Below are positions 18,951 to 58,083 of a stretch of 64,000 bases of DNA, one piece after another. How positions within the stretch are numbered: the first letter of the stretch is position 1; every line of letters begins with the position of its first letter. The stretch comes from Streptomyces sp. STR69 (GTDB lineage Bacteria > Actinomycetota > Actinomycetes > Streptomycetales > Streptomycetaceae), in assembly GCF_024519455.1 (NCBI RefSeq), contig NZ_JALJRY010000001.1:12972-76971 (forward strand), written 5' to 3'. Under the pieces are notes generated by a model that ran no database searches, was not told where the DNA came from, and was given only the letters and a program-made list of their open reading frames with translations. The position numbers and the translations under genes were made by a program.

Positions 18951-19469
18951 ATGACTGAGCCGTTGACAGTACCCGCGTACGAACTCGCCCAGGTCAACAT
19001 CGGCAGACTCCAATTCCCTCTGGACTCCCCGGAGTTGAAGGACTTCGTGGACGCCCTCGACCCCGTGAACGCCGTCGTCGACAAGGCCGAGGGTTTTGTG
19101 TGGCGCCTCCAGTCCGACTCCGGCAACGCGACCGACGTCCCCGTACTCGGCGACGACTGGCTGATCATCAACATGTCGGTGTGGCGCGACACGGACACCC
19201 TGACCGCGTTCATGTACCAAGGGCAGCACCGGGAGTTGCTGGCCCGCCGCCGCGAGTGGTTCGAGCGGATGCGGGAGGCGATGGTCGCCCTGTGGTGGGT
19301 CCCGGCGGGCCACCGCCCCACGGTCGCGGAGGCGGAGGAACGCGTCCTGCACCTCCGCGCCCACGGCCCGACCCCGTACGCGTTCACCCTGCGGACGTCG
19401 TTCCCGCCCCAGGGCGCGGAGCCGACCGCACCGGTCGACATCCCTGAGGGGCTGGGCTGTTCGGTCTAG
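18951..19469 (+). CDS. DUF3291 family protein
   Basis: 172 residues. The pattern YELAQVNIGRLQFPLDSPEL, DALDPVNAVVDKAEGFVWRLQ and WIINMSVWRD-like text matches DUF3291, a small alpha/beta (dimeric barrel-like) family whose biochemical role is not known. The residues LRREWFERM, WWVPAGHRPTVAEA are also family-like. Its 3' end overlaps the convergent ADP-ribosylglycohydrolase gene by 4 bp. Confidence 0.85.
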   Translation: MTEPLTVPAYELAQVNIGRLQFPLDSPELKDFVDALDPVNAVVDKAEGFVWRLQSDSGNATDVPVLGDDWLIINMSVWRDTDTLTAFMYQGQHRELLARRREWFERMREAMVALWWVPAGHRPTVAEAEERVLHLRAHGPTPYAFTLRTSFPPQGAEPTAPVDIPEGLGCSV

Positions 19470-39172: not shown

Positions 39173-39453
39173 CGTAAAGTTCGACCCGGAGCCACAAGAT
39201 CCACGGCGGTCCGCGCTGACGGACACGTGTGATCAGGCAGAGGCCCGCGCCGTTCGCGCGCCCGGCCCGCACCAAGACGCCCCCTCTGTAGCGGAACCAC
39301 GCTTGTTTCCCGCCATTTCGGCCCCCGAAACACACTTTCCGGTGTGACTTACACGACGATGGACCGGCCCGACCTGACCTTCGTGGTCATGGGGGCGTAG
39401 CCTTAATTCCCGCTGTCCATCACCTTGTGAAGCGGAAGAGGGCGGTTGCCGCC

Positions 39454-42400: not shown

Positions 42401-43251
42401 TCCTCTCCGAGTACGCGGTCATGGGCTTCGAGTACGGCTACTCGCTGGCCCGCCCCGACGCGCTCGTGATGTGGGAGGCGCAGTTCGGCGACTTCGTCAA
42501 CGGCGCCCAGTCGGTCGTGGACGAGTACATCTCGGCGGCGGAACAGAAGTGGGGCCAGACGTCCGGCGTCACCCTGCTCCTCCCCCACGGCTACGAGGGC
42601 CAGGGCCCGGACCACTCCTCGGCCCGCGTCGAGCGCTTCCTCCAGCTGTGCGCGCAGAACAACATGACGGTCGCGATGCCGACCCTCCCGTCGAACTACT
42701 TCCACCTCCTGCGGTGGCAGGTGCACAACCCGCACCACAAGCCGCTGGTCGTCTTCACCCCGAAGTCGATGCTGCGCCTCAAGGCCGCCGCGTCGAAGAC
42801 GGAGGAGTTCACGACAGGTCAGTTCCGCCCGGTCATCGGCGACGAGACGGTGACGGACCCGGCGTCCGTCCGCAAGGTCGTCTTCGTCACCGGCAAGCTG
42901 TACTACGACCTGGAGGCCGAGCGCGCCAAGCGCGGCACCACGGACGTGGCGATCATCCGCGTCGAGCGCCTGTACCCGCTGCCGGGTGCCGAGCTCCAGG
43001 CGGAGGTCAACAAGTACCCGAACGTCGAGAAGTACCTGTGGGCCCAGGAGGAGCCGGCCAACCAGGGCGCCTGGCCGTTCATCGCCCTCAACCTGATCGA
43101 CCACCTGGACCTGGCGGTCGGCGCGGATGTTCCTCACGGGGAGCGGCTGCGGCGGATCTCGCGCCCGCACTCGTCGTCTCCGGCGGTGGGCTCGGCGAAG
43201 CGGCACCAGGCTGAGCAGGAGCAGTTGGTTACGGAGGTGTTCGAGGCTTAG
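39454..43251 (+). CDS. kgd: Multifunctional 2-oxoglutarate metabolism enzyme (E1/decarboxylase with E2o-like domain)
   Basis: 1265 residues; GTG 39454 is chosen (product starts [10 protein letters not shown]), GTG 39427 is possible. N-terminus [18 protein letters not shown] is the family tail, followed by a long Ala/Pro-rich linker (about 65-140), an E2-like acyltransferase domain with YDHRVIQGA (about 357) and a thiamine diphosphate E1 domain ([11 protein letters not shown], about 584; [18 protein letters not shown]). It decarboxylates 2-oxoglutarate in the TCA cycle and passes the product to E2/E3 or makes succinic semialdehyde. The gene follows a two-component pair and is convergent with the Fxs/MoxR cluster. 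Confidence 0.95.
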
Positions 43252-43329: not shown

Positions 43330-46300
43330 TCAGGTGGTCTGCGGCTCGAAATTCCAGTGAGGGTGGTCGTCGGAACCGTCGAGGGCTGCCTGTGCCGTGC
43401 GGGTGAGCGGGTGGTCGGCGCCGAGACTCGCGGTTGCGTTGGCCACCGTCTCCTGGCCGAGTCCGGCGAGCATCTCCTCGCGGTCCGGGCTGCCGGCTAC
43501 GACATTCACCGCGCAGCCGAGCGTCCAGGGATGGGCCTGTCCAACGGCGCGGGTCATGTCGGCGAGTGACCGCTCCCCGAGGGCGTGTGCCTGCCTGTGC
43601 TCACCCACCCTGCGGAGGATGAGGGCGTGGTTGGCCCGGGCTCCGGCCGCGTATGGATGGTCGGGACCGAGCAGAGTCTCGTATCTGTCGACGATGGACT
43701 CGCTCAGGCGTCGGGCGTGGTCCACGTCGCCGTGCTCACGTTCGTGGCAGCAGTGGGCGACCGCAAGCAGCAGGGTGAGGGGAGCGTCCTTGCCGCTGAG
43801 ACGTTCGCTTCTGTGCAGCACTTCGGTGAAACGCGCTCCCGCGTGCTCGATGCCACCAGTCCGGTACTGGCACTGCGCTAGGTGGTAGAGCGCTTCGAGC
43901 GTCTGGGGGTGGCCGTCGCCCATGATCTGCTGGTGGCGGGCCGCATTCGTGCTCTGCAGGCGTTCAGCTTCTTCGTAGTGGCCCAGGAGCCTCAGGTCGG
44001 TGGCGCACTGGAGTTCTGAATGCAGGGTCCTGAGGTGGTCACGTCCGAGAACCTGCTCGCGGGCCCGCAGCGCGTCCCGACCAATGGCGGCGGCCTCGCC
44101 GTAGCGGCCGAGCAGCCGCAGCGAGACCGCCACGTTGTTGTCGGCCGACAGCGTGACGGGATGCAGTTCACCGCGAAGCTCTCGGTAACCCTCGCGCGCC
44201 TTCTCCGACAGATCGAGGGCTTCCTCATAGCGGCCCAGCGCTCGCAGGTCGGCCGCAAGACCGCCGACAGCACGCAGGTACCGGGGATCCGTCGCCATGC
44301 CCACGGAGCGAAACTGCTCCGTCGCCGCCCGGTTCACGATCTCGCTGCTCCGGTAGTCGCCCACGGCCCGCAGCAGGTTGGCGTAGTGATGGCCGAGCTC
44401 CCAATGCAAGTCCGGGTGCTCGCCCTGGAATCGCTCCCAGACGGACAGAGCCCGCTCGGCCAACCGGATGCCGGTCTCGTACTCACCTGAGAGGTACAAG
44501 TACCGCAGACAGTTGAGGGCCAGTTGGTGTGCGGCGGGGGCATCTCGGGACAGGACGTCCGCGTACTCCAGGTTCGAGACGAACTCGGCGTACCGCGGCC
44601 ATGCGTGTGCCTTGCCCGGGAAACTCGGATCGGCGGCGGCGAGGGTTCGCCAGGCCACGTCGGCGAGTTCTCCGTACTCCTCGGGGGGTATGTCGTCACG
44701 GACCGTCTGGTGCACCATCCGGTGCATGGACAGGATCTCGTTCGACGGGTCCTGCGTGGGGTGTTCCACGCGCACCACCGAGTAGGTGGTGAGTTGCTCG
44801 ACGGCACTGTCCCAACGGCTCGTGTCCGTGAGCAGCCTGACCACCACGGGTGGCAGATCGTCGACAGGAGTCTCCCGCAGCAGCCGCAGGGGGACGGCGT
44901 CCGGTGCGAAGAAGGTGCACAACCGCAGCAGCAGTACAGAGTCCGGGCAGGCCGCGCGGAGCCGTTCCAGCAGGACGGTCCAGGCAGCCCGGAAAGTCAT
45001 CGGGAAGTCCGGAGAGACCGCGACCCGGGTGTCCGCGGAGAAGTCCCCGGCCAGGAGTTCCAGATATTCCGCCACCGGCATGCCGGACTCGTCCAGCCAT
45101 CCGGCCGTCTGGTCGAGAACCAGCGGTAGGTCGGCCAACGCCTCAGCCAGCTGACGGGCGTCGTCATCGGTCAGCCGTGGGGCGCGGTGGCGGATGAAGT
45201 CGACCGACTCTGAGCGGTCGTAGGCGGGCACCTGCACCAGCGTGCTGTTGTGCGCACCCCACTCCTGGTTGCAGGACGTGATGAGCACATGGCCCGGTCC
45301 GGTCGGGACCAGGTCCTGGACCTCGTTCGGGTCGTCGGCACCGTCCAGGACGATCAGCCAGCGCGGGTAGGGATCTCCCCTGCGCAGGGCCTCGCGGACC
45401 GCGCGCAGGCGCTCGCCGTAGTCGGTCCCGGTCGGCAGCCCGAGCGCCGGCGCCAGGTCGGCGAGCCCCTGTCGGAAGGCGGCGCGACTGCCTGCGTTGA
45501 TCCACCACACGACGTGGTATCCGTACGCGAAACGGTAGGCGTACTCGGCGGCCAGCTGTGTCTTGCCGACTCCGGAGAGGCCGCAGAGGGTGACCCTGCC
45601 CGCGCGCTGGATCCGTTCGTAGGCAGTGTTCAGCAGGGGTGCCCGCCCGGTGAACCGCTCATTGCGTTCCGGGATCCTGCCCCACACGCGAAGGGTGTGC
45701 ACGGGGAAGGGCGGACCGTCGTCGGTGTCGGCCGTGGACGCCGGGTCGGGGTCGGCGGGCAGTGCGAGCCGGTTCAGGAGCCTGCGTTCTGCCTCGTCAG
45801 AACTCACGTCGTGCAGGCTGACGGAGTCGAGAGCCACCATTGACGGGAGAGAAGGAGCCACCGACACGGCGGCGATGCGCTCGGTCTCGGGGACGACGAC
45901 CTCGCGGAGGGCCCAGTGCCACTCCGCACCGGTGTGCGCCCCGGACCGGAGGTACTGGTCGCTCAGGAGCAGCAGCACCGGACCGGGGGCCAGCAGCAGG
46001 TCACGCAGTGACTCCTCCAGGGAGGCGTCCGGCGGCGGGTCCCAGCGCTGGAGCACGACCCGGTGTCCGCGCCGTTCGAGGCGGTGTCCGATCCAGTTGG
46101 CCCAGCTCTGGTCGAAGGGGGTGAAGCTGATGGTGATGGTCTGCCGTCCGGTGCGCAGGGGCCGTTGTTCCGGACCCGGTGACGTGTTTTCGGCCGGTGG
46201 CGCGCCGGAGAGGAAGGTGACGGGGCGCTTGCCGCCCGGTCGGTCCTGAATCCATGGAATGTCTCCGGACCGCTCCGGCGCCCGGGCGAGGGCGGCCCGT

Positions 46301-46728
46301 TCCCGCGCCACCTCGGCCAGTCGTGCCGCGGGTGCCCGCCCCGGATCGCGCTCCCTGATCTCGGAGCGCAGTTCGGCCTTGCGCACGGGCACGCCCCACT
46401 GGTTGCTGACGGTGAGCCAGAGTGCGCCGTGGCCGGTGGCCCGGCCGGTCGACACCCTGAAGTACGCGGGGCCGTACGTGCCGCCGAACCGATGGAGGAC
46501 GACGCTCGGTTCGTCCAGTGCGGTGCACACGAAGTACGGGGAGCCGTCGAGTGCGACGGTGAAGGTGAACTCCTCCTCCGGGTAGGGCCAGTTCGGTGCG
46601 GTGTCCTGCGTCTCCGGGAGCGGGCCGCGCAGATCGACGGTGACGAGGTAGTCGCACTCCGTCTCGGCCACCTGCGGCCAGGCCACGACCGGTTCGATCA
46701 GCAGCGGGTGCTCGTCGAGGTTCACCAT
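43330..46728 (-). CDS. fxsT: FxsT-type TIR-NB-ARC-TPR protein with extra N-terminal domain
   Basis: 1132 residues. Residues 1-190 are a beta-rich part (YLVTVDLRGPLP, YFRVSTGRATGHGALWLTVSN) not found in its paralogue at 51-54 kb. A TIR-type domain follows (TITISFTPFDQSWANWIG, about 197; Glu in GAEWHWAL), then an NB-ARC ATPase with Walker A GLSGVGKTQL (about 386) and Walker B WLIVLDGADD, and about ten TPR repeats to the C-terminus, ending HWNFEPQTT. The TIR could be an NAD-degrading effector once TPR and NB-ARC sense a trigger. It overlaps the CHAT gene by 7 bp and is last in its operon. Fxs-system TPR proteins have this architecture. Confidence 0.88.
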   Translation of the reverse strand: MVNLDEHPLLIEPVVAWPQVAETECDYLVTVDLRGPLPETQDTAPNWPYPEEEFTFTVALDGSPYFVCTALDEPSVVLHRFGGTYGPAYFRVSTGRATGHGALWLTVSNQWGVPVRKAELRSEIRERDPGRAPAARLAEVARERAALARAPERSGDIPWIQDRPGGKRPVTFLSGAPPAENTSPGPEQRPLRTGRQTITISFTPFDQSWANWIGHRLERRGHRVVLQRWDPPPDASLEESLRDLLLAPGPVLLLLSDQYLRSGAHTGAEWHWALREVVVPETERIAAVSVAPSLPSMVALDSVSLHDVSSDEAERRLLNRLALPADPDPASTADTDDGPPFPVHTLRVWGRIPERNERFTGRAPLLNTAYERIQRAGRVTLCGLSGVGKTQLAAEYAYRFAYGYHVVWWINAGSRAAFRQGLADLAPALGLPTGTDYGERLRAVREALRRGDPYPRWLIVLDGADDPNEVQDLVPTGPGHVLITSCNQEWGAHNSTLVQVPAYDRSESVDFIRHRAPRLTDDDARQLAEALADLPLVLDQTAGWLDESGMPVAEYLELLAGDFSADTRVAVSPDFPMTFRAAWTVLLERLRAACPDSVLLLRLCTFFAPDAVPLRLLRETPVDDLPPVVVRLLTDTSRWDSAVEQLTTYSVVRVEHPTQDPSNEILSMHRMVHQTVRDDIPPEEYGELADVAWRTLAAADPSFPGKAHAWPRYAEFVSNLEYADVLSRDAPAAHQLALNCLRYLYLSGEYETGIRLAERALSVWERFQGEHPDLHWELGHHYANLLRAVGDYRSSEIVNRAATEQFRSVGMATDPRYLRAVGGLAADLRALGRYEEALDLSEKAREGYRELRGELHPVTLSADNNVAVSLRLLGRYGEAAAIGRDALRAREQVLGRDHLRTLHSELQCATDLRLLGHYEEAERLQSTNAARHQQIMGDGHPQTLEALYHLAQCQYRTGGIEHAGARFTEVLHRSERLSGKDAPLTLLLAVAHCCHEREHGDVDHARRLSESIVDRYETLLGPDHPYAAGARANHALILRRVGEHRQAHALGERSLADMTRAVGQAHPWTLGCAVNVVAGSPDREEMLAGLGQETVANATASLGADHPLTRTAQAALDGSDDHPHWNFEPQTT

Positions 46729-48044
46729 GGGCCCCCTCCCCAGGCAGTGTGCCCATTGCCGGCGACGAGCCGCAGTGTGGTGAGCGGATGCCCGTAGTAG
46801 TGGAACATGAACGCATAAAGCAGCCGTAGGACTCGCTTCTGCCCGACTTTGTCGACCTGCCCGTCATCGTTGCGCGTCGTCGGGATCGCCGCCAGGGTGC
46901 CGAAGTCCTCGACCGCGCGGGCCCGGAAGTCCCGCAGGGTCTCCGTGACGGGACGGTCGGGGTGGGCGGCGACCTCGTGCAGCAGCCGGCGGACCATCCC
47001 CCTGGCCTCCTGGTCCCCGACCTCCCCGGCGGTGACGATGCAGCCGCCCGCGCCTTTCCGCAGGAAGAGTTCGGCGAAACCGCGCAGCGCGGTCTCGCCC
47101 TGGAGCCGGTTGTGGACGAAGCGACCTGAGTGGCAGGCGTTGAGACAGACGAGCGCGCGGTCCTCGCGCAGCACGTGCATGTCCCGGGTGTTGAACTCCG
47201 CCCACGTCCGGTCGCCGAGGCTGAGCCGCATGACGGCTTCGCCGTACGTGCCGTGGCAGCCCATGTAGACCAGACCGGTGCGCTCGTCGGGCAGCGGGAG
47301 GTCGAGGGCCTGAAGGAACGGCGTCATCGTGTCGTGCACCTGATGCGCGTAGGGGACGAAGACCCCGCCGTCGGCGGTCATGTCCTCGTGCAGGTAGGCG
47401 AGGACTCGCCCGTGGCAGTCCCCCGTTTCCTGGGGCAGGCTCTCTGACACACCGTGGACGGTGGTCCAGCGCGCCAGGACGAGCAGGGCTCCCAGCAACC
47501 CGCCGGCCAGGCCGTGCCGTTCGTCGGCGGGCACCCAGAACAACTCCCAGGGCAGCTCGAACCCGGTGTCGTCCCACACGATGAGGCGCAACCGGTCGCC
47601 GTGCCGCTCGCGGATGCGGTTGATCCAGCCGGCGAGTTCGCTCTGGTTTCCGGACCAGAGCTGGATGCCCCGCAGCGTCTCCGAGGGGAACTCCCCGGTC
47701 TGCCTGATGGTCGCGAGAGTGACGCCGGGTGCCACGAGGCGGGTCGGTCCGGTCCGGCAGGTCACCGTGAACTCACCGCACCAGCCCTGGAGTTGGTATC
47801 CGTCCTGGCTGTCGTAGCCCGCGGTACGGATGACCCGGAGCACCGCGTAGCCGTCCTCCAGACGCTCGTAGGGCCGGGCCTGACCGCTGCCGGTTCCCGA
47901 AGGCGGACCGGACGGGCGGCGGAACTGCAGCACGGCCGCCGACTCACGCCTCGCCGCCGCCTGCAGCCCGGGGAACGCGGCCCGCCGTATCGCGGTCCCC
48001 GTGCCCGTAAGCCAGCGCGCGGCGCGCGGCGGCTCACCGCTCAC
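46722..48044 (-). CDS. CHAT (caspase-like) protease of the vWA-MoxR module
   Basis: 440 residues from GTG 48044, with GGAG about 5 nt upstream; start overlaps the vWA gene by 11 bp. The C-terminal half contains YMGCHGTYGE (catalytic His about 262) and LNACHSGRF (catalytic Cys about 303), the CHAT dyad, and NGLFLRKGAGGCIVTAGEV-like text (FLRKGAGGCIVTAGEV). The first 150 residues are unassigned; the next part (GFELPWELFWVP) resembles CHAT-adjacent segments. CHAT proteases are often activated effectors that cleave a partner or cause cell death. Follows the vWA protein in the same operon. Confidence 0.9.
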   Translation of the reverse strand: MSGEPPRAARWLTGTGTAIRRAAFPGLQAAARRESAAVLQFRRPSGPPSGTGSGQARPYERLEDGYAVLRVIRTAGYDSQDGYQLQGWCGEFTVTCRTGPTRLVAPGVTLATIRQTGEFPSETLRGIQLWSGNQSELAGWINRIRERHGDRLRLIVWDDTGFELPWELFWVPADERHGLAGGLLGALLVLARWTTVHGVSESLPQETGDCHGRVLAYLHEDMTADGGVFVPYAHQVHDTMTPFLQALDLPLPDERTGLVYMGCHGTYGEAVMRLSLGDRTWAEFNTRDMHVLREDRALVCLNACHSGRFVHNRLQGETALRGFAELFLRKGAGGCIVTAGEVGDQEARGMVRRLLHEVAAHPDRPVTETLRDFRARAVEDFGTLAAIPTTRNDDGQVDKVGQKRVLRLLYAFMFHYYGHPLTTLRLVAGNGHTAWGGGPW

Positions 48045-49929
48045 CGGCAACTCCTTCCCCGTGCACCGGCGCGAGCACCGTTCCGCCCAGCGCGTCCGCC
48101 AGCGAGAACGGCAGATCCCCGTAGGGCTCCCGCCTCGCGTCGATGACAGCGACGCGCAGCCTCGTCCGGTCCATGGCACCGGCGCCGGCCGCTGCCCGCA
48201 GGGCGTCCTCCACGCCCTCCGCTCCCACCGGGCCGGTCAGGCGTCCGGTGCGGCTGACGTGCAGTGGGACGTTGCCTCTGCCGTCGGTGACCACCACGAG
48301 CCAGGCCTCGGACAGGCTGCTGTCGTGCTGGCGGAAGGACCGGCGCAGTGCCTGCAACGCCTGCTCGACGCCGTGCGCGAGCGGGCTGGCCCGGCCCGGC
48401 GACCGCTGCAGGGCCGGCACGATCCTCGGGTCGAGAACGCTGCGGGCGGCGAAGGACTCCGCCCGCAGTTCGTCGTCGGCCTCCGCGCTGCCCACCTCGA
48501 CGACCTGGACCGCGGCGCGCCTGGTGTACGCCCAGTCCAGGAACGGCGTGAGGGTGTCCTGCCAGTCCCAGTCGTCGGCCCGGCAGGTGTGGTCGAGGAG
48601 CAGCACGAGGAGGTGCTCGGGCGAGCCGGAGCGTACGTGGCTGTGGAGGTCCACGGGCGAGACCGTGAACCGCTCCGTGCGACGGATGCGCTGATGTACG
48701 GCCGCCTCCCGGACGGTACGCACATGCGCGAGGTCGCTCAGGTCCGTGGCCCGCCGGGTGCCGATCACCACTCCGCGCAGGGAGGCCGGTCCCGCCGTAC
48801 GTTGCCAGGGGCTGCGCAGGGGCGCGAATTCGCGCAGCTCGTCGGCCTCGTCCTCGGGGTAGGGGGTGGCGAGGACGGCTTGGGTACCGCCGCGTCCCGC
48901 CCCGACGCCCTCGGCGGGTTCGGACTCCAGCAGCGGCTGGCCGCCCTCGGGACGGTGCCTCTTGTCCTGTTCCGGCTGCCGTCGTTCTCCGGAGTCTCCC
49001 TGTGGCCGCCTGCCCGGGCGCGGCGGCGGAAGCTCCGAACTCGTTTCGTCGCCGGTCGGCTCCGCGGGCACCTCAGTCACGGCCAGCCCCATGAGCCGGG
49101 CCGCCGCATCGCAGTGGCCGACGGTGGCCACCCGCTCACCGTCGAGCGTGGCCAGGGCACGTGCGAGCCTGGCCAGGGAGAGTTCCCTACGGATGTTCCC
49201 CTCCGGCCCGAGCAACTCGTACACGCGGGCCAGCGCATCGTCGCCGACCGCGGCGGTCTCCACCGGGGCCACCTGGGCATCCCGGGCGGCGTCCAACCAG
49301 CCTGGGGGAAGCACCGCGAGCAGCCGGCCGGTGTCCGCCGGCAGCCGCAGTCCGGAGACGGGCAGTCTGATGGCGAACCTGTCGAGCAGATGACCGGCGG
49401 GTCGCCCGGCGTCGGCAGAACGGCAGAGGGCCAGCCAACGGGCCCGCGGCCTGGCGCTGCGGCGCAGTCCCGCGTATTCGACGACAGCGACCTCGGCCCC
49501 CAGCAACTGAACGGCTGCCCGCATCCCGGCCACGCTCAGCCGGGTCAGATCCGGAACCGCGACCACCGGCGGTACCCCGGAGCGACCGTCGGCCTCGATC
49601 AGCGGGCCAGGCTCCATCCGGAACGAGATGCCGTCGGGTTCCTGAACCAGCACGGGCCGCGTCCACAGGTCCTCGTCCCGGCTCGTGGCCCCCAGCATGA
49701 CGGGGGGACGTGCCGGCTGCCCAGCACCCGCCAGGATCCGGCCGAAGAGACGCGTCACCGGGTCGAGCAGCTGGGGTTCCAGGTCGAACAGCAGCACACC
49801 GGTCAGCGCCGGGTCGACGGCTGCGCAGACGAGGGCACGGCACAGCCTCAGAGCGAGCTCGTCGGCCTCCGGTGGTGCAGGAGCGTTCTGGACAGGCGCG
49901 TCGGTCCTGTTGGACGGCTCGGTGGACAT
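48034..49929 (-). CDS. BchD-like vWA domain protein
   Basis: 631 residues from ATG 49929 (GAGGG 5 nt upstream). Residues 25-190 look like a degenerate AAA domain as in BchD (GVLLFDLEPQLLDPVTRLFG). A Pro/Glu-rich linker (about 290-390) leads to a vWA domain (420-600) with VVVTDGRGNVP. The metal site that is normally DxSxS reads DHTCR, so it keeps Asp and Thr but is degenerate. Its partner is the upstream AAA ATPase, 7 bp away, like the I/D subunits of magnesium chelatase; no H subunit is present. In vWA-MoxR modules this pair is thought to remodel or sense a target and trigger associated proteases. Confidence 0.82.
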   Translation of the reverse strand: MSTEPSNRTDAPVQNAPAPPEADELALRLCRALVCAAVDPALTGVLLFDLEPQLLDPVTRLFGRILAGAGQPARPPVMLGATSRDEDLWTRPVLVQEPDGISFRMEPGPLIEADGRSGVPPVVAVPDLTRLSVAGMRAAVQLLGAEVAVVEYAGLRRSARPRARWLALCRSADAGRPAGHLLDRFAIRLPVSGLRLPADTGRLLAVLPPGWLDAARDAQVAPVETAAVGDDALARVYELLGPEGNIRRELSLARLARALATLDGERVATVGHCDAAARLMGLAVTEVPAEPTGDETSSELPPPRPGRRPQGDSGERRQPEQDKRHRPEGGQPLLESEPAEGVGAGRGGTQAVLATPYPEDEADELREFAPLRSPWQRTAGPASLRGVVIGTRRATDLSDLAHVRTVREAAVHQRIRRTERFTVSPVDLHSHVRSGSPEHLLVLLLDHTCRADDWDWQDTLTPFLDWAYTRRAAVQVVEVGSAEADDELRAESFAARSVLDPRIVPALQRSPGRASPLAHGVEQALQALRRSFRQHDSSLSEAWLVVVTDGRGNVPLHVSRTGRLTGPVGAEGVEDALRAAAGAGAMDRTRLRVAVIDARREPYGDLPFSLADALGGTVLAPVHGEGVAGER

Positions 49930-49936
49930 GATGCCC

Positions 49937-50881
49937 TCAGGCCGCGTCGAAGAGGTCCTTGACCCGGGACTCGTCCTCGGGCCCCCATTCGAAGGTGCCG
50001 CCGTGCGCGGTCTCCGGCCGACGGTGCCGAAAGGCCATGGGCAGCACCCGTAACAGATGACCGGGCGACACCTCCTCCGCCTCCTCCAGTGCGGCCAGTG
50101 CACGGGCCGCCAGGGTCGCCACGATCTCGCCGCGCTGGCCGACGGCTGCCACGCGTTCGGCGGCCTGCGCGCACAACCGGACGACCTCGTCCGGGACTTG
50201 CGTACCGGACACCCGCGCCCTCGCCCCCTCCAGCCGGTCCCGCCGTGTGCTGTCGTCCCGTTCCGCCTCGTCCCGCCAGACGGATTCCTTCCGGGTCAGC
50301 TCCTCCTCGAAGTGGAGCACGGTCCGGATCGTCCTGTGGCGCGCGTCCGTGTCCAACTGACTCGCAGCAACCATGAGCCCGAACCGGTCCAGCAACTGCG
50401 GCCGCAGACCACCCTCTTCGGGGTTCATCGTGCCCACCAGACCGAAGGACAACTGCTTGGCTGTGGCCAGCCCCTCCCGCTGCACGGACAACACCCCCGT
50501 CGAGACGACGTCGAGAATGATGTTGACCAGGTGATCGTCGAGCAGGTTCACCTCGTCGATGTAGAGCAGCCCCTTCTCGGCGGCCTCTTCCAGCAACCCC
50601 GGCTGCGGACGGGCCTCGCCCCGCATCAGGGCGTCCAACTCCCAGCCGCCGACGACCCGGTCGTCGGTCGCGTTGATGGGGAGGGTCACCGGTAACTCCT
50701 CGTGCACCATGAGCGCGAAGGCCCGTACGAGGGTCGACTTGGCCGTCCCGCGTGCTCCGGCCATGAGCACACCGCCGATGCGGGGTTCCACGTAGTTGAG
50801 TTCCAGCGCCAGTTTGAGATCGTCCTGCCCCACGACACGGCTGTACGGCAGGATGTGCACGCCCTCTGTTGCCCGGCTCAC
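49937..50881 (-). CDS. MoxR/BchI-like AAA ATPase
   Basis: 314 residues from GTG 50881 (GGAGGGGGAG upstream). Walker A GARGTAKST (about 43), Walker B LLYIDEVNLL (about 105), sensor region SFGLVGTMNPEEGGLRPQLLDRF are of the magnesium-chelatase I subunit type (SF in MoxR-like AAA). It overlaps the Trypco1-type gene by 4 bp and precedes the vWA gene by 7 bp, making an obligate-looking pair. Probably remodels protein complexes. Confidence 0.9.
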   Translation of the reverse strand: MSRATEGVHILPYSRVVGQDDLKLALELNYVEPRIGGVLMAGARGTAKSTLVRAFALMVHEELPVTLPINATDDRVVGGWELDALMRGEARPQPGLLEEAAEKGLLYIDEVNLLDDHLVNIILDVVSTGVLSVQREGLATAKQLSFGLVGTMNPEEGGLRPQLLDRFGLMVAASQLDTDARHRTIRTVLHFEEELTRKESVWRDEAERDDSTRRDRLEGARARVSGTQVPDEVVRLCAQAAERVAAVGQRGEIVATLAARALAALEEAEEVSPGHLLRVLPMAFRHRRPETAHGGTFEWGPEDESRVKDLFDAA

Positions 50882-51288
50882 GAGTCGGCTCCCCCTCCGC
50901 TGCCCGGTAACGCCACTCCGGAGGCGCCGGCAGTCCGCCACCTGAAGGTGACCTGGAGCTGCGCCTCGGCCCCGCTCCTGACCAACGCCACGACACCTGC
51001 GTCCACTTTGATCGCCAACTGCAACTCGATCTCGTCCGGCCGCAGATCGTCCGCCATCTCCCCGAACCGCCGGACGGCCTGCGCGGCACACCGCCGGGCC
51101 AGATCCAGGCCTTCGGTGTAGGCGTCCTGGGCGACTTGGACGACTCGGCGGGCGGAACCGTCTCTGGTCTTTTCGTCGGCGTAGATGGCGTCGAGGCCGT
51201 CGAGGGGCCCGTCGACAAGGTCCGACGTAACTTCCACGGGAATGGGCCCGTCAGCACCTTCCGGAACGGGCCCCACCAGAATCACCAC
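50878..51288 (-). CDS. Trypco1-type (trypsin-co-occurring) small protein
   Basis: 136 residues, GTG start. The pattern of a beta-rich N-terminus (VILVGPVP...IPVEVT), helix AYTEGLDLARRCAAQAVRRFGEMADD, and strand-like LAIKVDAGVVALVRSGAEAQLQVTFRW matches the small Trypco1 family found next to trypsin-like or CHAT proteases in NTP-dependent conflict systems. Function unclear. First gene of the downstream operon, coupled by a 4-bp overlap to the AAA gene. Confidence 0.75.
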   Translation of the reverse strand: MVILVGPVPEGADGPIPVEVTSDLVDGPLDGLDAIYADEKTRDGSARRVVQVAQDAYTEGLDLARRCAAQAVRRFGEMADDLRPDEIELQLAIKVDAGVVALVRSGAEAQLQVTFRWRTAGASGVALPGSGGGADS

Positions 51289-51393
51289 ACGTCCCCCTGA
51301 CGAACTCTCTTATTGCGTGCGGTAGTTGAGAGAGAACTGGGTCATTCCCCGACCCTCGAAGAGTTATGCGTGGCGGGGGATGCCTTGGTGCTT

Positions 51394-54390
51394 TCACACT
51401 GTCCAGGGCTCGAAGTCCCAGTAAGGGCGCTTCCGAGAACGGGCCGCGACCGTGTGAACATGCTGAGAACCAAGGGTTCCCGACAGATCCGACAACGCTT
51501 CCTGTTCAATTTTTTCCGCCTCTTGTCGGTTCCTCAGATCACGGAGATCGGCCGCGAGAGCGACGCGGGCCGACAGGGTCAGGGGATGAGTGCGGCCCAG
51601 CGTTTCGATGGCTCGCGAGACCGTCGCCCTGCTCAACTCTGCGGCCGACTCCGGGTCGCCGGACAGGTTCCGAACGAACGAGGCATTGATGGCGCAACCC
51701 AAGGTCCAGGGATGGTGTTCCCCCACCGCTGCGGTCATCTCTGCCAGGGCCTGTTCGGCGAACGAGTGGGCCTGGTCTCGCTCTCCGACGTTGCTGAGAA
51801 TCAGGGAGTGGTTGGACCGGCATCCCGCAATGAAGGGATGCCCTTCCGAATGCGCCAATTCATAGCGCGCCAAGACTGATTCGCTGACCTCTCGCGCCTT
51901 GTCCATGTCACCGTGTTCGCGAGTGAAGCAGCTCTGGCTGACGGCGAAGACCAGCGCCCACGGGTGTGTTTCTCCCAACACTACCTCTGCACGCTCCAAA
52001 ACCCGGCCGAGCAATTGTCCCGCTTGGCCCCGATCGCCACCTCGGTACAGGCACATCGCCAGGCTGTGCTCTCCCGTCAGCGTCACAGTATGGTCAGTTC
52101 CTAGAATTCTGCGCAATTCGCGCAGGTTGTCCGTCAGGATGGATTGGGCTTCGGAGTATTGACCCAAGAGACGAAGATCGGTGGCGTAGCTAACTCCCGA
52201 CCAGAGCGTTTCCGGATGCGCCGCTCGCAAGACCTCACGACGCAATTCCAGCGTTCTCCGATCCATCTCCAAGGCCGCTTCATAGCGGCCAAGAAGACGC
52301 AGTGAGACCGCCAGATTATTCTGCGCATTCAGCGTCTGCCGATCTGATTCGCCAAGAAGATCGCGCCATGCCAGGACCAGCCACTCAGAAAGCTCCAGAG
52401 CTTCCTGATAGCGAGCGAGACCGCGCAGGTCGGCCGCGATACCATTGGCTGCGCGCACATACTCCAGCCCCTGGCCCCTGTTCTGGCCTCTGAGCGTTTC
52501 GATAACCGCCCGCCCGACCGCCTCCGCGTTCTGGTAATCGCCCACCCCCCGAAGCAGGTTGGCGTAGTGGTGAGCCAATTCCCAGAAACGAGGATGGCCC
52601 TCACCCAATAGCTCCCGCCAGGCATCCATGGCACGCTCGCCGAGCTTGAGTCCTGCCGTGTACTCACCCGAGCTGTACATGTAGCGGAGACAGTTCAGGA
52701 CAAGTTTTTGGACCTGACGGTCTTCGCTCGCGAGCACATCCGCATCCTTGAGGTGTGGCGCGATCTCCGCGTATTTGTCCCACAGCCGAGTGTCGTCGGG
52801 ACGCCCGGGATCGGCCGCGACCAGAGCCCGTCGCACCATGTCGACGAAGAGGCGGCTGTCCTCGTCGGAAATTCCCTGATGCACGATCTGATGCACCATC
52901 CTGTGCAGGTACAGGGACTGGCTGGGGAAAGTATCCTCGTCAATGGCTGTCTCGTGGGACTCCAGGCGAATCACCGAGTACTGGCGCAACTGGTCGATCG
53001 CTCTGGTCCACAGCGCGGGATCGCCGAGCAGGCCGGCAAACCGCTCGGGAATCTCCTCCAGCGGCATTTCCCTAAGGAATCCCACAGGAATGAAGCCCGG
53101 CGCGAAGAACGTGCACAACCGCAGCAGGTCGACGGACTCGGGAACGGTTTGCCGCAATTTCTGAAGCAAGATCGCCCAGGCCCGCTGGAAAGGACTCGGG
53201 GCGTCCCCTCGGACCGCCAAGCCGCTCTCGAACTGCGCGATGTAGTCCGGGACCGACAAGTCCGAGTCATTGAGCCAACCCGCCGTCTGGTCCAGCAACA
53301 GAGGGAGGTCCCCCAGTGCCTCGGCGAGTTGGTTGGCATCGGTGTCCGTCAGGCGCGGGGCCCTGCGGCGGATGAAGGCCACCGACTCGTCACGAAGATA
53401 GACCGGCACCTCGATCAACTGACTGTTGTGCTCACTCCACGCCTGGTTCCGCGAGGTGATCAGGACGTGGCCGGGCCCGGTGGGTACCAGGTTCGAGATC
53501 TGGCCGGGCTCGTCCGCACCGTCCAGAACCAACAACCAGCGGCTATAGGGCTCACCCCGACGCAACGCGTCCCTCACTGCACGCAACCGCTCGCCGTAGT
53601 CGGCGCCCGTGGTGAGGCGAAGCCTCGGGGCAAGTTCTGCGAGGCGACGCCGATAGGCCGCCAGCGACTCGGCGTTGACCCACCACACCACGTCGTATTC
53701 AGGCCCGAAGCGGTAGACGTACTCCGCCGCGAGCTGGGTCTTGCCCACGCCCGGCATGCCATAGAGGGCCAGCACTCCCGCTCCCGGCTCGGCATCGCGC
53801 AAGAGGTGATACGCGTCGTTCAGCAGCGGCTCACGTCCCGTGAAACGGGTGTTGCGGCGCGGCACCCCACCCCACACCTCAGGCATCGCCGCCGGAAAAC
53901 GTGGACCGCGCCGCGCACCATCGGCGGACTCGATCAACGGTTCGCCGAGCATGTCGAGCCGGTCCAGCAGACGCCGTTCGGCCTCGTCCGCCCCCACGTT
54001 GCTCAGGTCCATGGCAGCGAGGACAGCGGTGGCGGTGGGCATCGCATCATTGCTGACCGACACCGCCGCGAACTTCACCGGATCAGGAGCCACGACCTGC
54101 CGGAGCGCAGCGTTCCACTCTTCGTATGTGCGTGGTCCCAGTTGGAAGTACCACTTGCTGACGACGATCAGAACCCGCCCAGGGGCAAGCTTCAGGGAGT
54201 CCAGCAGATCGACGAGCGGAATCTCCGGCGGAGCATCCCACCGCGCGAACACGACACGGTGCCCACGCCGCTCCAACCGGTCCCCGATCCACGCAGCCCA
54301 AGCCCGGTTGAATCCGGCGAAGCTGATCGTGACGGTCTGTTTGACCGCACGCCCGCCGACCGGTCCAACTGGCGTGCGAGTCCCAGACAT
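51394..54390 (-). CDS. fxsT: FxsT-type TIR-NB-ARC-TPR protein (second copy)
   Basis: 998 residues from ATG 54390 (GGGGGAGG 7 nt upstream; the longer frame to 54621 is not needed). TIR-type domain at about 15-150 (VTISFAGFNRAWAAWIG, EEWNAAL), NB-ARC with Walker A GMPGVGKTQL (about 215) and LLVLDGADE, then TPR repeats. C-terminus YWDFEPWTV. It is a diverged paralogue of the 43-46 kb protein, without its N-terminal domain. Base use differs from neighbours: 52081-52140 has 31 G+C of 60, far below the 70% typical here, suggesting later acquisition. Lies between the HExxH enzyme and the Trypco1 operon. Confidence 0.88.
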   Translation of the reverse strand: MSGTRTPVGPVGGRAVKQTVTISFAGFNRAWAAWIGDRLERRGHRVVFARWDAPPEIPLVDLLDSLKLAPGRVLIVVSKWYFQLGPRTYEEWNAALRQVVAPDPVKFAAVSVSNDAMPTATAVLAAMDLSNVGADEAERRLLDRLDMLGEPLIESADGARRGPRFPAAMPEVWGGVPRRNTRFTGREPLLNDAYHLLRDAEPGAGVLALYGMPGVGKTQLAAEYVYRFGPEYDVVWWVNAESLAAYRRRLAELAPRLRLTTGADYGERLRAVRDALRRGEPYSRWLLVLDGADEPGQISNLVPTGPGHVLITSRNQAWSEHNSQLIEVPVYLRDESVAFIRRRAPRLTDTDANQLAEALGDLPLLLDQTAGWLNDSDLSVPDYIAQFESGLAVRGDAPSPFQRAWAILLQKLRQTVPESVDLLRLCTFFAPGFIPVGFLREMPLEEIPERFAGLLGDPALWTRAIDQLRQYSVIRLESHETAIDEDTFPSQSLYLHRMVHQIVHQGISDEDSRLFVDMVRRALVAADPGRPDDTRLWDKYAEIAPHLKDADVLASEDRQVQKLVLNCLRYMYSSGEYTAGLKLGERAMDAWRELLGEGHPRFWELAHHYANLLRGVGDYQNAEAVGRAVIETLRGQNRGQGLEYVRAANGIAADLRGLARYQEALELSEWLVLAWRDLLGESDRQTLNAQNNLAVSLRLLGRYEAALEMDRRTLELRREVLRAAHPETLWSGVSYATDLRLLGQYSEAQSILTDNLRELRRILGTDHTVTLTGEHSLAMCLYRGGDRGQAGQLLGRVLERAEVVLGETHPWALVFAVSQSCFTREHGDMDKAREVSESVLARYELAHSEGHPFIAGCRSNHSLILSNVGERDQAHSFAEQALAEMTAAVGEHHPWTLGCAINASFVRNLSGDPESAAELSRATVSRAIETLGRTHPLTLSARVALAADLRDLRNRQEAEKIEQEALSDLSGTLGSQHVHTVAARSRKRPYWDFEPWTV

Positions 54391-54587
54391 GTTGCGACCT
54401 CCCCCGTCGGGCACCTGGTACCCGGGCGTGAGTGTAGGGGCGGGCATGGCAGTGGAACAGGGCGCCTTCGGCACCAGTGGAGTCGTGCGGCACCGGCACG
54501 GCTCCACAGCGTTCTGGTCCATCCCCGTCGTTCTTGTTGATCTTCCATGCGGCGGAACGAGGACGGCGCTGCTTTTGTCACGCCGCG

Positions 54588-56081
54588 TCACCCACTTACC
54601 AGAGAGTGCGTCCGTACCCATGCCTTACGCATCCGGTCGACATACTTCTCGGCTTCCTCGCGTGCTTCTTTCGGGGGCGGGTCCGCGTCCAGACGCGTCC
54701 ACTCTTCGATCATCATGTCGACCAGGAAGCGCCCGGGGGGAGTGAGGGCGTCGGATGCGTCGATCGAGGGAAGGGCAGCTCTCACCTGCTCTCGATGGCG
54801 CGCGTGCCTCTCCCACGCCGAGTCTCGCTGCGCAGGTGCGACGGTGTCCGCCCGGGCACATCGCTGGAAAAAGTCCGCAAGTGCCAAGTGGCTGTACACC
54901 CCGTGCAACAACGCGTCATACGGCCGCGGGTCAGACCTCCACGGTGCGAAGTACCGTTTCTCAGAACCCGCGCGGTGCAACTGCACCATCTCGCTGAGCG
55001 CGGCGAACTTGGCATGCTGAATCTCATGCACCAGGGTCGCGGCGAGAGCTGCAGGAGTGGGCGGGGTGCTGCTGAGAACGGCGCCAAAGGCCTCCCTGCG
55101 AGTCCCGCTGCAACTGCCGGGTCCGTCAGTCTGCGAAACCGAGGTCGTACGCGAGGCAACAGGAACAGCGAGTGGTACCAGACATCGCAACATCGCGACG
55201 ACCTCCGCCAGCCGACGCTCACCCCCAAGCCGCAGCAACGAGGCGGTCCCAGACCACGAGTGCAACCACCGCGCCCGCTGCGCCGCGTCGACGACCACCG
55301 GACCGCTCAAATCACGGTGCCGCAGCTCACGACCGGAGCTGCGGTAGGGATCGAAGTCATCGAGTGACACCGGAGCACCCCCGGGCAACAGACCGGGCAG
55401 AGTGCGCGCCGCGCTCCAGGCGAGTGCATCGGACCACGTGGTCGTGCTGTCGTGTCCCCAACGGACGACAACATCCGCCGCCCTGGACTGACAAAGCGTC
55501 ATCCGCCCTTCCTGGACAGTGAGTTCAACGGACGCATCTCCCGATTCGACCGTCCGCAACGCCCCGAGAGACGGCAGCGCCAGCACCCCGTCCCGCGCCG
55601 TGAGGCGCACCGTGAACGACACCCCGGCCCGGGCCGCCGCAGCGGCGGCAATGGCACTGAAATGGGCCAGGTCGCGTCCCAGGAGCCGTACCCGTTCCTC
55701 AGGCGGCGTGCGCGTGCCGTCCACCGCCGTGCCGTCCAGCAAACGCAGGCAGCTCCGCGCCCAGGGCCCGACCAGTGGATACAGCAGCCGGTCCAGCGCG
55801 GCCGAGCCCCGGATGCCGGCCCCCGGCCACGTCTCCGCATCGCCGCCCCCCACACCCGTCCCGTCCGCCGCCTCCAGCCGAGCCCAGTCCTCCCGCAGCC
55901 GGGCCCGAACCGATGACGGACAGACCGTCGCGTCGGCGGTCTCGACGGCGTCCAGTGCGGTGCGCAGCAGGAGCAGCCGGCGATTGTGCTGGTCCCGGAC
56001 GAGCAGGGCGAGCGTGTCGGGGCCGCCCCCGGTGTGGCCCAGTTCGCGCAGGGCTTCTTCGGAGAGCGCCGATGAGATCAT
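54588..56081 (-). CDS. HExxH-type peptide-modification enzyme of the Fxs system
   Basis: 497 residues. The motif LVHEIQHAKF (about 354) is an HExxH metal site; the rest is an unfamiliar helical and beta-rich scaffold. In Fxs clusters a HExxH domain follows FxsB, often fused to it; recent family naming places it among alpha-ketoglutarate-dependent peptide beta-hydroxylases. Here it is a separate gene whose start shares one base with the FxsB stop (TGATG), so it is translated with it. Substrate most likely the FxsA peptide. Confidence 0.75.
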   Translation of the reverse strand: MISSALSEEALRELGHTGGGPDTLALLVRDQHNRRLLLLRTALDAVETADATVCPSSVRARLREDWARLEAADGTGVGGGDAETWPGAGIRGSAALDRLLYPLVGPWARSCLRLLDGTAVDGTRTPPEERVRLLGRDLAHFSAIAAAAAARAGVSFTVRLTARDGVLALPSLGALRTVESGDASVELTVQEGRMTLCQSRAADVVVRWGHDSTTTWSDALAWSAARTLPGLLPGGAPVSLDDFDPYRSSGRELRHRDLSGPVVVDAAQRARWLHSWSGTASLLRLGGERRLAEVVAMLRCLVPLAVPVASRTTSVSQTDGPGSCSGTRREAFGAVLSSTPPTPAALAATLVHEIQHAKFAALSEMVQLHRAGSEKRYFAPWRSDPRPYDALLHGVYSHLALADFFQRCARADTVAPAQRDSAWERHARHREQVRAALPSIDASDALTPPGRFLVDMMIEEWTRLDADPPPKEAREEAEKYVDRMRKAWVRTHSLVSG

Positions 56082-57295
56082 CAGGTGGCTCCTTGTGGGA
56101 CGAACGTTCCGGTGAGAACCGCGTTCGGCGCGGTCGCCGCCCCAGCCACCCGCCCGGCGACATGCCGAATAAACCGCTGCAGGTCAACGCAGTACACCGA
56201 GGGATTCGCGAAGCCGTACCCGGCCCGATAGCGATGGGCGTAGTGCCCACCCCCGCAGACCTCCAACAACGGACACACCCGGCACTCCGCCCCCAGCGCA
56301 GCAGCCCCCGCCTGCCGCGCAACAACACCAGGATGACCGAGCGCGTCGTCGAAGCTGTTCCGGAAGACGTCCAGACCGGTACGAGCGGCCCCGTCGTACG
56401 CCGACTTGAGCGAATCGATCTGCTCGATCGAACCATCCGTCTCCACGACAACGGCATCGAAAGGCGCCAGCCCCAACGACTCCGTACCCGCCCGCAGCCC
56501 CAGCAGCAGAGCGATGCACTCCTCGAAGAGCCGCACCTTCGTCTCCCTGCGCCCCGCTCCCCACCAGCGGTCAAAAACGGCGCACAGCCAGTCCCCGTAG
56601 GGGGTCGTGACCCGATCCGCAACCGTCGTCTTCGGCCCGAGATGGGGCGGCGGAGCCGACCAGTTCCCGTGCGGCAGCAGGAGGTCGAGAACCGGCGGAC
56701 GTAACGCGAGCAGGGATTCATACCACTCGACGGGTTCGGTCACCGGATCCACCACGGCCAGGATTCCCGCATACGACTCCGGGCAGCGTTCGGCGAGCAG
56801 CCGCGCACCGCGCACCGCCGCGGGCCACGACGGCCGTCCGGCACCGTCGACGCGGCGCGCGTTGTGGGCGGCGAGACCCCCGTCGAGGCTGAGGCCGATG
56901 CGGATGCCGTGCCGGGCGAGTACATCGACACGTCGCGCGGTCAGAAGCGTGCCGTTGGTCTGGACAGTGGCATGAACGGTGCACCCTCCCGGCGCCTCCG
57001 TCCTCACCCGTTCGGTGAACCGGGCCAGCCTCTCCGCGCCCGCGAGCAGCGGCTCACCGCCGTGCAGCACCAGGGACAGTGCCCGCAGCCGGTGTTGTGC
57101 GGCGTGCTCGGCGATACGGGACGCGGTGGCATCGAGGACCTCCGGAAGGGCCGCGGAGGGACGGTCGCGCCAAGTCTGATCAGGGCCTTCATAGAGATAG
57201 CAGTAGCGACAGGAAAGGTTGCACCGGCCATGGACTTTCACCACGAACTGCCGGAAGGGGAAAGGAGCCCGCGCCAGAGTCACGTGTTCAGACAC
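56081..57295 (-). CDS. fxsB: FxsB-type radical SAM cyclophane-forming peptide maturase
   Basis: 404 residues from GTG 57295. Radical SAM cluster motif CNLSCRYC (Cys 25, 29, 32) followed by YLYEG, plus Gly-rich SAM contacts (VLHGGEPLL, TVQTNGTLL, SLDGG). A cysteine set near the C-terminus (ECRVCPLLEVCGGGHYAHRY, about 335-355) fits the auxiliary SPASM-like site. Enzymes of this group crosslink an aromatic residue with the residue two positions later in precursor peptides. It lies 183 bp downstream of the FxsA-type gene and is coupled to the HExxH gene. Confidence 0.92.
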   Translation of the reverse strand: MSEHVTLARAPFPFRQFVVKVHGRCNLSCRYCYLYEGPDQTWRDRPSAALPEVLDATASRIAEHAAQHRLRALSLVLHGGEPLLAGAERLARFTERVRTEAPGGCTVHATVQTNGTLLTARRVDVLARHGIRIGLSLDGGLAAHNARRVDGAGRPSWPAAVRGARLLAERCPESYAGILAVVDPVTEPVEWYESLLALRPPVLDLLLPHGNWSAPPPHLGPKTTVADRVTTPYGDWLCAVFDRWWGAGRRETKVRLFEECIALLLGLRAGTESLGLAPFDAVVVETDGSIEQIDSLKSAYDGAARTGLDVFRNSFDDALGHPGVVARQAGAAALGAECRVCPLLEVCGGGHYAHRYRAGYGFANPSVYCVDLQRFIRHVAGRVAGAATAPNAVLTGTFVPQGAT

Positions 57296-57478
57296 TCAGG
57301 CCCCCCATTGCCGTAGTGCAAGCCGCCCGAGACGCCTTTCCCGGCGCCTTCCCGCACATAACCCGGCCCCTTCGAAGGTGTCCGATTCGGCCGGTGGATC
57401 GGCCGGAACCCGGCATGGGACAACCGTGGCTCCGGACAACCCGCTTCCACACACAGCTCGCCACTCCCAGCTCACCGC

Positions 57479-57688
57479 TCAGAAAGCGTTGTTGAACCCC
57501 CACAACATCTCGTCCGGATCCGTCGCTCGCTCCCGGAGGTCCGCCAGCACCTCGGCCAGGATCGGGTGCTGCACAGTCCTCAACTCCGCGAGCCCCATTG
57601 CCAGAAGGTCCGGCAGTTCCGCGTCCCGTGGGTGCCCCGGAGACGGCTCCTCGCCGTCCGGCGTACTGGCCTCTGACTCCGCCATCAC
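57479..57688 (-). CDS. fxsA: FxSxx-COOH-type precursor peptide (variant FNNAF tail)
   Basis: 69 residues, GTG 57688 (or ATG 57685, preceded by GGGGGCAGG). The middle part LPDLLAMGLAELRTVQHPILAEVLADLRERA is an Asp/Leu-rich leader-like helix, and the C-terminus is DPDEMLWGFNNAF. The classical family ends in F-x-S-x-x; here the third last residue is Asn, giving F-N-N-A-F. A Phe-x-Asn motif is a known type of target for three-residue cyclophane enzymes. It is the first gene of the cluster, upstream of the radical SAM gene. Confidence 0.8.
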   Translation of the reverse strand: MMAESEASTPDGEEPSPGHPRDAELPDLLAMGLAELRTVQHPILAEVLADLRERATDPDEMLWGFNNAF

Positions 57689-57900
57689 CCTGCCCCCTCA
57701 CCTCGTCGCCTGCGTCCCGCTCGGCAGCCTTTGCCGGCGCGCACCCGGTCCCCCGCCGTCCCTTCCTCGCATAGGGCATACCCCGGCAGCGGGCTGCCTG
57801 CGCGCCGGATGCGGCGGGGCCGTCGGCCGCCGCGCCGATCCCGCATAACCTGGAGGTCCACCGAACCGTGGCCCGAGGCCCACTTCCAGGAGATTCCCCC

Positions 57901-58083
57901 GTGTACTTCACCGACCGAGGCATCGAAGAGCTCGAAAAGCGGCGCGGCGAGGAAGAGGTCACTTTCGAGTGGCTCGCCGAGCAGCTGCGGACGTTCGTCG
58001 ACCTCAACCCCGACTTCGAGGTCCCGGTGGAGCGCCTGGCGACCTGGTTGGCGCGGCTGGACGACGAGGACGACGACGAGTAG
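57901..58083 (+). CDS. Small acidic conserved protein (DUF6104 type)
   Basis: 60 residues from GTG 57901, preceded by AGGAG at 8 nt. The sequence MYFTDRGIEELEKRRG-type start, LAEQLRTFVDLNPDFEVPVERLATWLARL and acidic DDEDDDE tail match a small conserved Streptomyces family of unknown role. Probably helical. Confidence 0.82.
   Translation: MYFTDRGIEELEKRRGEEEVTFEWLAEQLRTFVDLNPDFEVPVERLATWLARLDDEDDDE

Follow-up and report, generated by a model that had tools for sequence, protein, structure and literature searches.

Gene content of the cluster

We analysed a 64,000-nucleotide stretch of DNA (the window) from Streptomyces sp. STR69 (RefSeq assembly GCF_024519455.1, contig NZ_JALJRY010000001.1, positions 12,972 to 76,971), which carries a nine-gene cluster combining a peptide-modification pathway of the FxSxx-COOH type with an ATPase, a protease-like protein and two TIR-NB-ARC-TPR proteins. 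The surrounding genome is 10.7 Mb and the closest relatives, judged by the nine-gene cluster, are Streptomyces. All nine genes lie on the minus strand and run from 57688 to 43330 in the order FxsA, FxsB, HExxH, FxsT1 (here the front half), Trypco1, AAA, vWA, CHAT and FxsT2 (the back half). Curated family models confirmed the content, single direction and order given in the initial annotation.

The front half begins with a 69-residue FxsA-type precursor peptide (57479..57688; TIGR04268, 41.7 bits, cut-off 28), which ends in LWGFNNAF, a tail kept in relatives. It is followed by FxsB, a radical SAM/SPASM maturase (56081..57295; TIGR04269, 425.8 bits, cut-off 370) whose CxxxCxxC motif is present in 20/20 sequences read, and by an HExxH enzyme (54588..56081; TIGR04267, 159.4 bits, cut-off 40) whose motif is present in 18/18 and whose family is named aKG-HExxH-type peptide beta-hydroxylase. 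Once classed as a peptidase family, it also contains hydroxylases that depend on alpha-ketoglutarate and act once the cyclophane has formed, according to the relevant parts of PMC12636437. FxsT1 (51394..54390, start inferred from relatives) has TIR_2, NB-ARC and TPR parts and scores 829.7 bits against NF040586 (cut-off 300). Precursor, FxsB, HExxH and FxsT all exceed the curated cut-offs of the FxSxx-COOH system in NCBIfam. The C-terminal motif calls for Ser as its third residue, which the window tail (FNNAF) lacks, and the precursor is of the FxSxx-COOH type by curated model, not by literal motif; a literal FxSxx reading was dropped because nearly all loci with a back half have an FxN tail. 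Family-model scans of the nine proteins revealed no transporter or export gene.

The back half consists of a Trypco1-domain protein (50878..51288; NF041216; PF19493, 54.6 bits, cut-off 24.6), an AAA ATPase with Walker motifs in the alignment (49937..50881; PF07728, 51.6 bits, cut-off 22), a ChlD-like vWA protein from a conserved family (48034..49929), a CHAT protease-like protein (46722..48044; PF12770, 28.3 bits, cut-off 24) and FxsT2 (43330..46728; TIR_2, TPR; NF040586, 757.3 bits). In FxsT2 the TIR-NB-ARC-TPR body is preceded by an Ig-like N-terminal domain (NTD, 46324..46728), which was delineated by alignment, a model and its fusions to other effectors.

The best NCBIfam relatives of the AAA protein are Mg/Co-chelatase I subunits. 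The vWA protein has no Pfam match and its NCBIfam relatives are of the chelatase D type, below their cut-offs. Neither protein reaches the Mg/Co-chelatase equivalog cut-offs (AAA, 221 bits versus 466.95 and 269 versus 779.45; vWA, 41 and 69 bits). The MoxR-type label originally given to this pair was corrected to chelatase-type, and a plain MoxR-vWA reading was dropped because the best relatives are chelatase subunits. The MoxR N-terminal motifs WxhapG and PsWRxa were not seen in 24 aligned AAA N-termini read by eye, and in the alignment the vWA protein stops shortly after the vWA domain. The His/Cys dyad of the CHAT protein is present in 24/24 aligned sequences and in 15/15 survey loci read (11 by motif, four by eye); a comparison of the CHAT protein with PDB sequences gave no match. 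One Streptomyces protein (P0044, 1078 residues) matches the ChlD-like vWA protein over 91% and also contains a CHAT domain, an apparent vWA-CHAT fusion. PF20028 (VMAP-C) matched none of the nine proteins; VMAP-C was not found elsewhere in the genome of the window either, although the control genomes gave no match as well.

Overlaps of 1 to 11 bp had been proposed throughout each part. They exist at four of the eight junctions (FxsB/HExxH, 1 bp; Trypco1/AAA, 4 bp; vWA/CHAT, 11 bp; CHAT/FxsT2, 7 bp) but not at the others. AAA and vWA are separated by 7 bp from the ATG at 49929 (10 bp from one codon further in), FxsA and FxsB by 183 bp, and FxsT1 and Trypco1 by 105 bp. With the FxsT1 start at 54390, as in relatives, the HExxH/FxsT1 gap is 197 bp, whereas the first in-frame ATG (54621) would mean a 34-bp overlap.

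The back half is an optional but linked block

The collection of species genomes was scanned with the vWA alignment, via two peptide patterns, which yielded 28 vWA-led loci. The initial annotation had proposed a search for co-occurrence in the same order; all nine genes were found in order in 17/28 (L005–L017, L020, L021, L025 and L028), down to ~45% vWA identity. A different front is found in L027, L029 and L031: it has two FxsB-family maturases and nothing that matches the window HExxH. In L027 two precursors, both above the YxD-tail family cut-off, and two maturases stand before two switches (the YxD scan covered L027). L029 has broken frames. Contig ends cut L022, L023, L026 and L032 on a side that matters, and L031 within the vWA gene. 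A Trypco1-AAA-vWA-CHAT-NTD series with no TIR-NB-ARC-TPR behind the NTD was present in L018 and L019 (Actinomadura), L024 (Saccharothrix) and L030 (Lentzea). The plasmid collection added two records with the CHAT protein, L099 (Nonomuraea; an 11.9 Mb record labelled plasmid) and L100 (a Streptomyces megaplasmid).

Wherever the second effector was of the FxsT type and the locus could be read at both ends, a peptide pathway lay upstream (19/19 vWA-led loci; 17 of Fxs type, and L027 and L029 with two FxsB-family maturases). By comparison, none of the six loci with other effectors that were readable upstream (L018, L019, L024, L030, L099 and L100) had a match to FxsA, FxsB, HExxH or FxsT (E ≤ 1e-5) in the 7.5–8.7 kb of upstream DNA examined.

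We also searched outward from FxsB. The first survey covered 101 Streptomyces genomes and 58 FxsB neighbourhoods, with most fused FxsBH frames and fragments left out. In the second, window FxsB was compared with 392 Streptomyces genomes, 110 of which matched at E ≤ 1e-130; 54 had an FxsB match of at least 64% identity, and all their neighbourhoods were read (the window itself, 15 carried over from the initial survey and 38 new). The back half was adjacent in 18, the front stood alone in 32 and the slot was unreadable in four (L068 and L077 are truncated; in L054 and L055 the slot contains a run of N, which in L054 lies beside a piece of Trypco1). The FxsB-led and vWA-led counts are not additive because strains are shared (e.g. 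L101 = L005, L059 = L016). The arrangement recurs too often (17/28 vWA-led and 18/54 FxsB-led loci) to be a chance one, and the suggestion that the two halves form one system stands as to linkage, but the relationship is one-sided, since the front lacks the back half in 32/50 readable loci.

The slot itself is recurrent. In the window it is bordered by kgd, encoding 2-oxoglutarate dehydrogenase (39427..43251, plus strand; NF008907), and by a DUF6104 gene (57868..58083, plus strand; PF19599), both of which recur beside related loci. kgd lies downstream in 16/17 nine-gene vWA-led loci (L017 reaches a contig end) and in 31/32 front-only loci (not L091); of the 18 back-half loci, 16 were read through to kgd, L059 up to the NTD and L070 up to CHAT.

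According to the initial annotation, a functional link would be unlikely if related genomes usually carried the halves far apart. The chelatase-type vWA was detected in 0/32 front-only genomes (E ≤ 1e-30; 9 + 23 genomes, with part of the first-look candidates scored in most), and therefore the halves are not found far apart. At the same threshold it was also not found in the L054 and L055 genomes. The genome of the window has one vWA copy, and in a 30-genome set the three genomes with vWA all have it in a linked cluster.

A kgd DNA tree of 53 loci (quick method) calls for 14 changes in the state of the back half, of which at least 11 fall on starred branches; an earlier run with 43 loci, in which L054 and L055 counted as front-only, gave 11 changes, at least nine of them starred. 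Every gene tested in the 17 nine-gene loci diverges along with kgd (r 0.66–0.88), for which reason vertical descent with repeated loss fits better than frequent transfer, although this is not proof. Front and back diverge as two blocks (r 0.85–0.94 within, ~0.5–0.8 between). One deletion can be read directly: compared with L013, L083 lacks ~7 kb; the two are 93% identical as far as the first part of Trypco1, and the match picks up again within FxsT2, so that the end of FxsT2 remains ahead of kgd. At the join (15690–15760 versus L013 8640–8700 and 15700–15760) a few bases are shared. Deletion by recombination between FxsT1 and FxsT2 was considered and is unsupported, as single FxsTs of the close front-type loci are almost wholly FxsT1-like and the L083 breakpoints lie inside Trypco1 and FxsT2. 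A second FxsT-like match is kept in L057 and L135.

Effectors are exchanged behind the NTD

In loci of other make-up the NTD is followed by VMAP-C and NYN (L018, with EAD2, and L019), WD40 (L024), a caspase (L026), CBM48/alpha-amylase (L030 and L099) or trypsin and EAD2 (L100), and in two metagenome proteins (P0210, P0233) by STAND-type ATPases; L040 has no Pfam match. With so varied a set of effectors behind it, the NTD resembles a constant plug for effectors that can be exchanged. Its divergence tracks CHAT (r 0.93) more closely than its own protein body (r 0.67). The NTD was found in 3/394 genomes of the class at large (10 candidates scored per genome), and in another gene order in 1/35 genomes, that one already known. 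The Actinomadura proteins with NTD and VMAP-C (L018 11994–14627, L019 13010–16123) form a bridge to published VMAP systems, and CBM48/alpha-amylase (L030 12967–15420, L099 11864–14362) is an odd partner for a conflict adaptor.

The two switches

A quick tree of 41 rows does not separate FxsT1 and FxsT2 into two clades. The labels change 10 times for FxsT1 and nine times for FxsT2, each at least eight times on starred branches; the third FxsT of L017 was labelled FxsT1, possibly adding one change. In L009, L010, L011, L014/L021 and L027, FxsT2 falls together with an FxsT1 from its own locus or from a sister locus. In L017 a third FxsT gene (16520–19249) follows FxsT2 and is closest to it, and the two group together. 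Likeness within a locus is uneven along the protein: in L028, L014, L021, L011 and L009, FxsT2 is 85–92% identical to its own FxsT1 in the NB-ARC part and 42–69% in the last TPR part (L028: TIR 90%, NB-ARC 92%, last TPR part 42%). FxsT2 bodies diverge faster, with a mean identity of 54.1% versus 68.2% (18 loci). In 11 close front-type loci the single FxsT has FxsT1 as best match in 87/88 segments, the exception being one L054 segment that matches an FxsT2; four more distant loci were mixed.

TIR NADases carry a catalytic Glu in helix C. The TIR fold of the window protein is indicated by a PF13676 match, by a model with a predicted local distance difference test score (pLDDT) of 84.1 and by Foldseek, whose best matches are TIR chains (E 1.8e-4). 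Absence of the Glu was suspected at first. A candidate is E90, in a region that the sequence search did not reach; it is invariant (14/14), directly precedes a Trp and is predicted to lie near the start of a helix.

A possible link between a ring residue and the back half

Precursors in the FxsB-led survey have Asn as third ring-motif residue in 18/18 loci with a back half versus 12/29 front-only ones, the remainder having Ser (13), Ala (3) or Arg (1); three of the 32 front-only loci have no such tail. The difference gives a Fisher p of 2.3e-5 when kinship is ignored. On the kgd tree, 11 pairs of relatives that differ in the back half comprise ~5 Asn changes in the same direction and 0 in the opposite one.

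A possible intracellular alarm and its alternatives

Tentatively, and with somewhat less than even confidence, we read the nine genes as one linked unit: a cyclophane-type peptide pathway with its own switch, followed by an optional five-gene back end. The unit is likely an internal alarm against infection, acting inside the cell, with a predicted modified peptide that would set both switches. The analysis establishes the domains, the gene order, the linkage, the joint presence or absence of the back half, the change of effector behind the NTD and the tree of the switches; every biochemical and physiological step of the alarm we infer as follows. FxsB would form a ring of three residues in the WGFNN tail. 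The ringed peptide, which the HExxH enzyme may hydroxylate, probably stays inside the cell since no transporter is encoded among the nine genes. The TPR parts of FxsT1 and FxsT2 would sense the peptide or its loss, and the two proteins could co-assemble through their similar TIR and NB-ARC parts. The NTD would next dock the FxsT assembly onto the AAA-vWA motor. By ATP-driven remodelling the motor would set the CHAT protease free, and growth arrest or cell death would follow from CHAT and TIR activity. A more far-reaching version, which we regard as doubtful, takes the ribosomal cyclophane peptide as the intracellular ligand of a bacterial NLR pair, FxsT1 as the constant sensor and FxsT2 as a repeatedly re-derived copy joined to an Ig-like adaptor, through which interchangeable effectors plug into a chelatase-type AAA-vWA-CHAT machine, with the ring Asn selected only while the machine is present.

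In favour of the alarm are the linkage, the varied effectors behind the NTD, the pairing of the two switches, the doubled precursors and maturases of L027, the conserved CHAT dyad and other motifs, and the tail Asn. Several observations weigh against it. The front is found without the back end in most readable loci. PADLOC gave no system match for the window, only generic radical SAM and AAA matches. The likeness of FxsT1 and FxsT2 could reflect gene conversion between tandem copies, with no interaction needed, and in the window itself the two are only 47–66% identical, FxsT2 siding with other FxsT2s. The TIR parts are no more than putative NADases. The effector contrast is confounded in part by relatedness, because 5/6 other-effector loci lie outside Streptomyces. 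The Asn association misses 0.05 in the kinship-aware test on the kgd tree (median p 0.0625, range 0.016–0.25), the pairs on the FxsB tree give ~4 versus 0 (p 0.125) and a smaller run gave p 0.125. Counting L054 and L055 as front-only gave 18/18 versus 14/31 and a kgd-tree median p of 0.031; both were moved out of that class because of the run of N in the slot, which weakened the test. L017, with a back half and Ser, is an exception (its contig has no kgd, so it enters the FxsB tree only). The association was noticed afterwards, while tails were being read, and is suggestive only: a hypothesis, not a test.

The two halves might instead be separate systems that share a chromosomal slot, and perhaps a transcript, without a common function, as is often the case in defence islands. 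The frequent front-only loci, the back end found elsewhere with other effectors and no Fxs front, the 105-bp gap between the halves in the window and the divergence of front and back as two blocks would all fit. We consider this rather unlikely, however, as the FxsT-type back end never occurred without a peptide pathway in the 19 loci readable at both ends, no unlinked back end turned up in the 32 front-only genomes and the nearest match of the second switch is, in several loci, the switch of the front itself.

It is less probable still that the peptide is an exported signal or antibiotic and that the switches and the AAA-CHAT part serve self-recognition, immunity or development and not phage defence. 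Fxs maturases are widespread in Streptomyces (FxsB exceeds its cut-off in 67/101 genomes) and PADLOC lists no part of the set as a defence system, but the nine genes lack an exporter and the effectors behind the NTD (caspase, trypsin, NYN, VMAP-C) are conflict types. That the AAA-vWA pair is a maturation chaperone, loading a metal or activating the peptide enzymes, seems very improbable: the pair has chelatase-type relatives, and chelatase-like AAA-vWA pairs load metals in known systems, as far as the relevant parts of PMC7159879 describe them, but FxsB + HExxH fronts persist without the pair in the 32 front-only loci, and its constant neighbours are CHAT and variable effectors.

Relation to known systems

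A paper of 2020 already described FxSxx peptides and TIR-AP-ATPase-TPR proteins as coupled to MoxR-vWA systems (Kaur 2020, PMC7159879), so this idea is not new. In the sections of that paper that treat them, ~20% of actinobacterial VMAP-ternary systems are linked to FxSxx or other peptide processing with AP-ATPase-TPR proteins, and the peptide is proposed to be a toxin or an amplifying signal. By those sections, the systems share with the window an FxSxx-type peptide, a radical SAM/SPASM enzyme, a metallopeptidase-like protein, TIR-AP-ATPase-TPR proteins, an AAA + vWA pair (there of the MoxR clade), Trypco domains and variable effectors. The same sections also set VMAP-ternary systems apart: the window has no VMAP-C and its AAA + vWA pair is chelatase-type, the order is Trypco1-AAA-vWA-CHAT-NTD effector rather than VMAP-MoxR-vWA, and the variable effector is carried by a distinct NTD protein instead of the vWA C-terminus. 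CHAT is part of the window, whereas the word does not appear in the main text of PMC7159879. The window module and VMAP systems are nevertheless related, because the two Actinomadura relatives have VMAP-C behind the NTD.

The AAA + ChlD-like vWA pair also resembles the I and D subunits of Mg/Co-chelatase, but scores far below the curated cut-offs, has no H subunit among the nine genes and has Trypco1 and CHAT as companions. The window shares the HExxH family, acting after cyclophane formation, with the ChlBH-type aKG-HExxH hydroxylases as presented in the relevant parts of PMC12636437; there HExxH is fused to the radical SAM enzyme, whereas in the window it is a separate gene of predicted activity. 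Further MoxR-vWA systems in the pertinent parts of PMC10907252 and PMC8195603 are none of them of the window's make-up. As far as the open-licence literature was searched, the chelatase-type CHAT/NTD back end, the exchangeable effector and the gain and loss as a block are new (the PMC7159879 source data may list such loci).

Since 2020, FxSxx-type peptides have been under suspicion of acting in NLR-like conflict systems. Because related strains differ in one slot by the whole back end, peptide, switch and effector are separable genetically. To the suspected immunity systems of bacteria the cluster contributes a chelatase-type AAA-vWA machine equipped with a plug-in adaptor for effectors, and it offers a case of an NLR-like protein seemingly recopied from its neighbour.

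Further loci and minor observations

An Rfam search of 38000–60000 gave no match, RNA structure in the FxsA–FxsB gap had no support (z −1.36), and a promoter and terminator scan found 1 and 8 versus 0.3 and 5.3 in shuffles, none of which was used. The window's own genome holds further FxsT-family loci: L035, with an FxsT and no FxsB match within the 20 kb read, and L033 and L034. L033 encodes a fused maturase, an FxsC-like protein and a MinD-FxsT, and L034 is similar. These stand-alone Fxs systems have the FxsB and FxsT families in common with the window but differ in the MinD-type N-terminus, fused maturase and FxsC-like protein, and the 20 kb read around them contains no match to the AAA, vWA or CHAT proteins. 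Another locus (L052, 332–9062, minus strand) has, behind a related peptide front with two maturases, a TIR_2 protein, a MoxR AAA and a 1545-residue protein ending in TIR-NB-ARC-TPR; it resembles the systems of Kaur 2020, and L053 shows the same match pattern. Finally, the gene adjoining the slot, kgd (39427–43251 in the window), encodes 2-oxoglutarate dehydrogenase and the HExxH family uses 2-oxoglutarate, possibly by chance.

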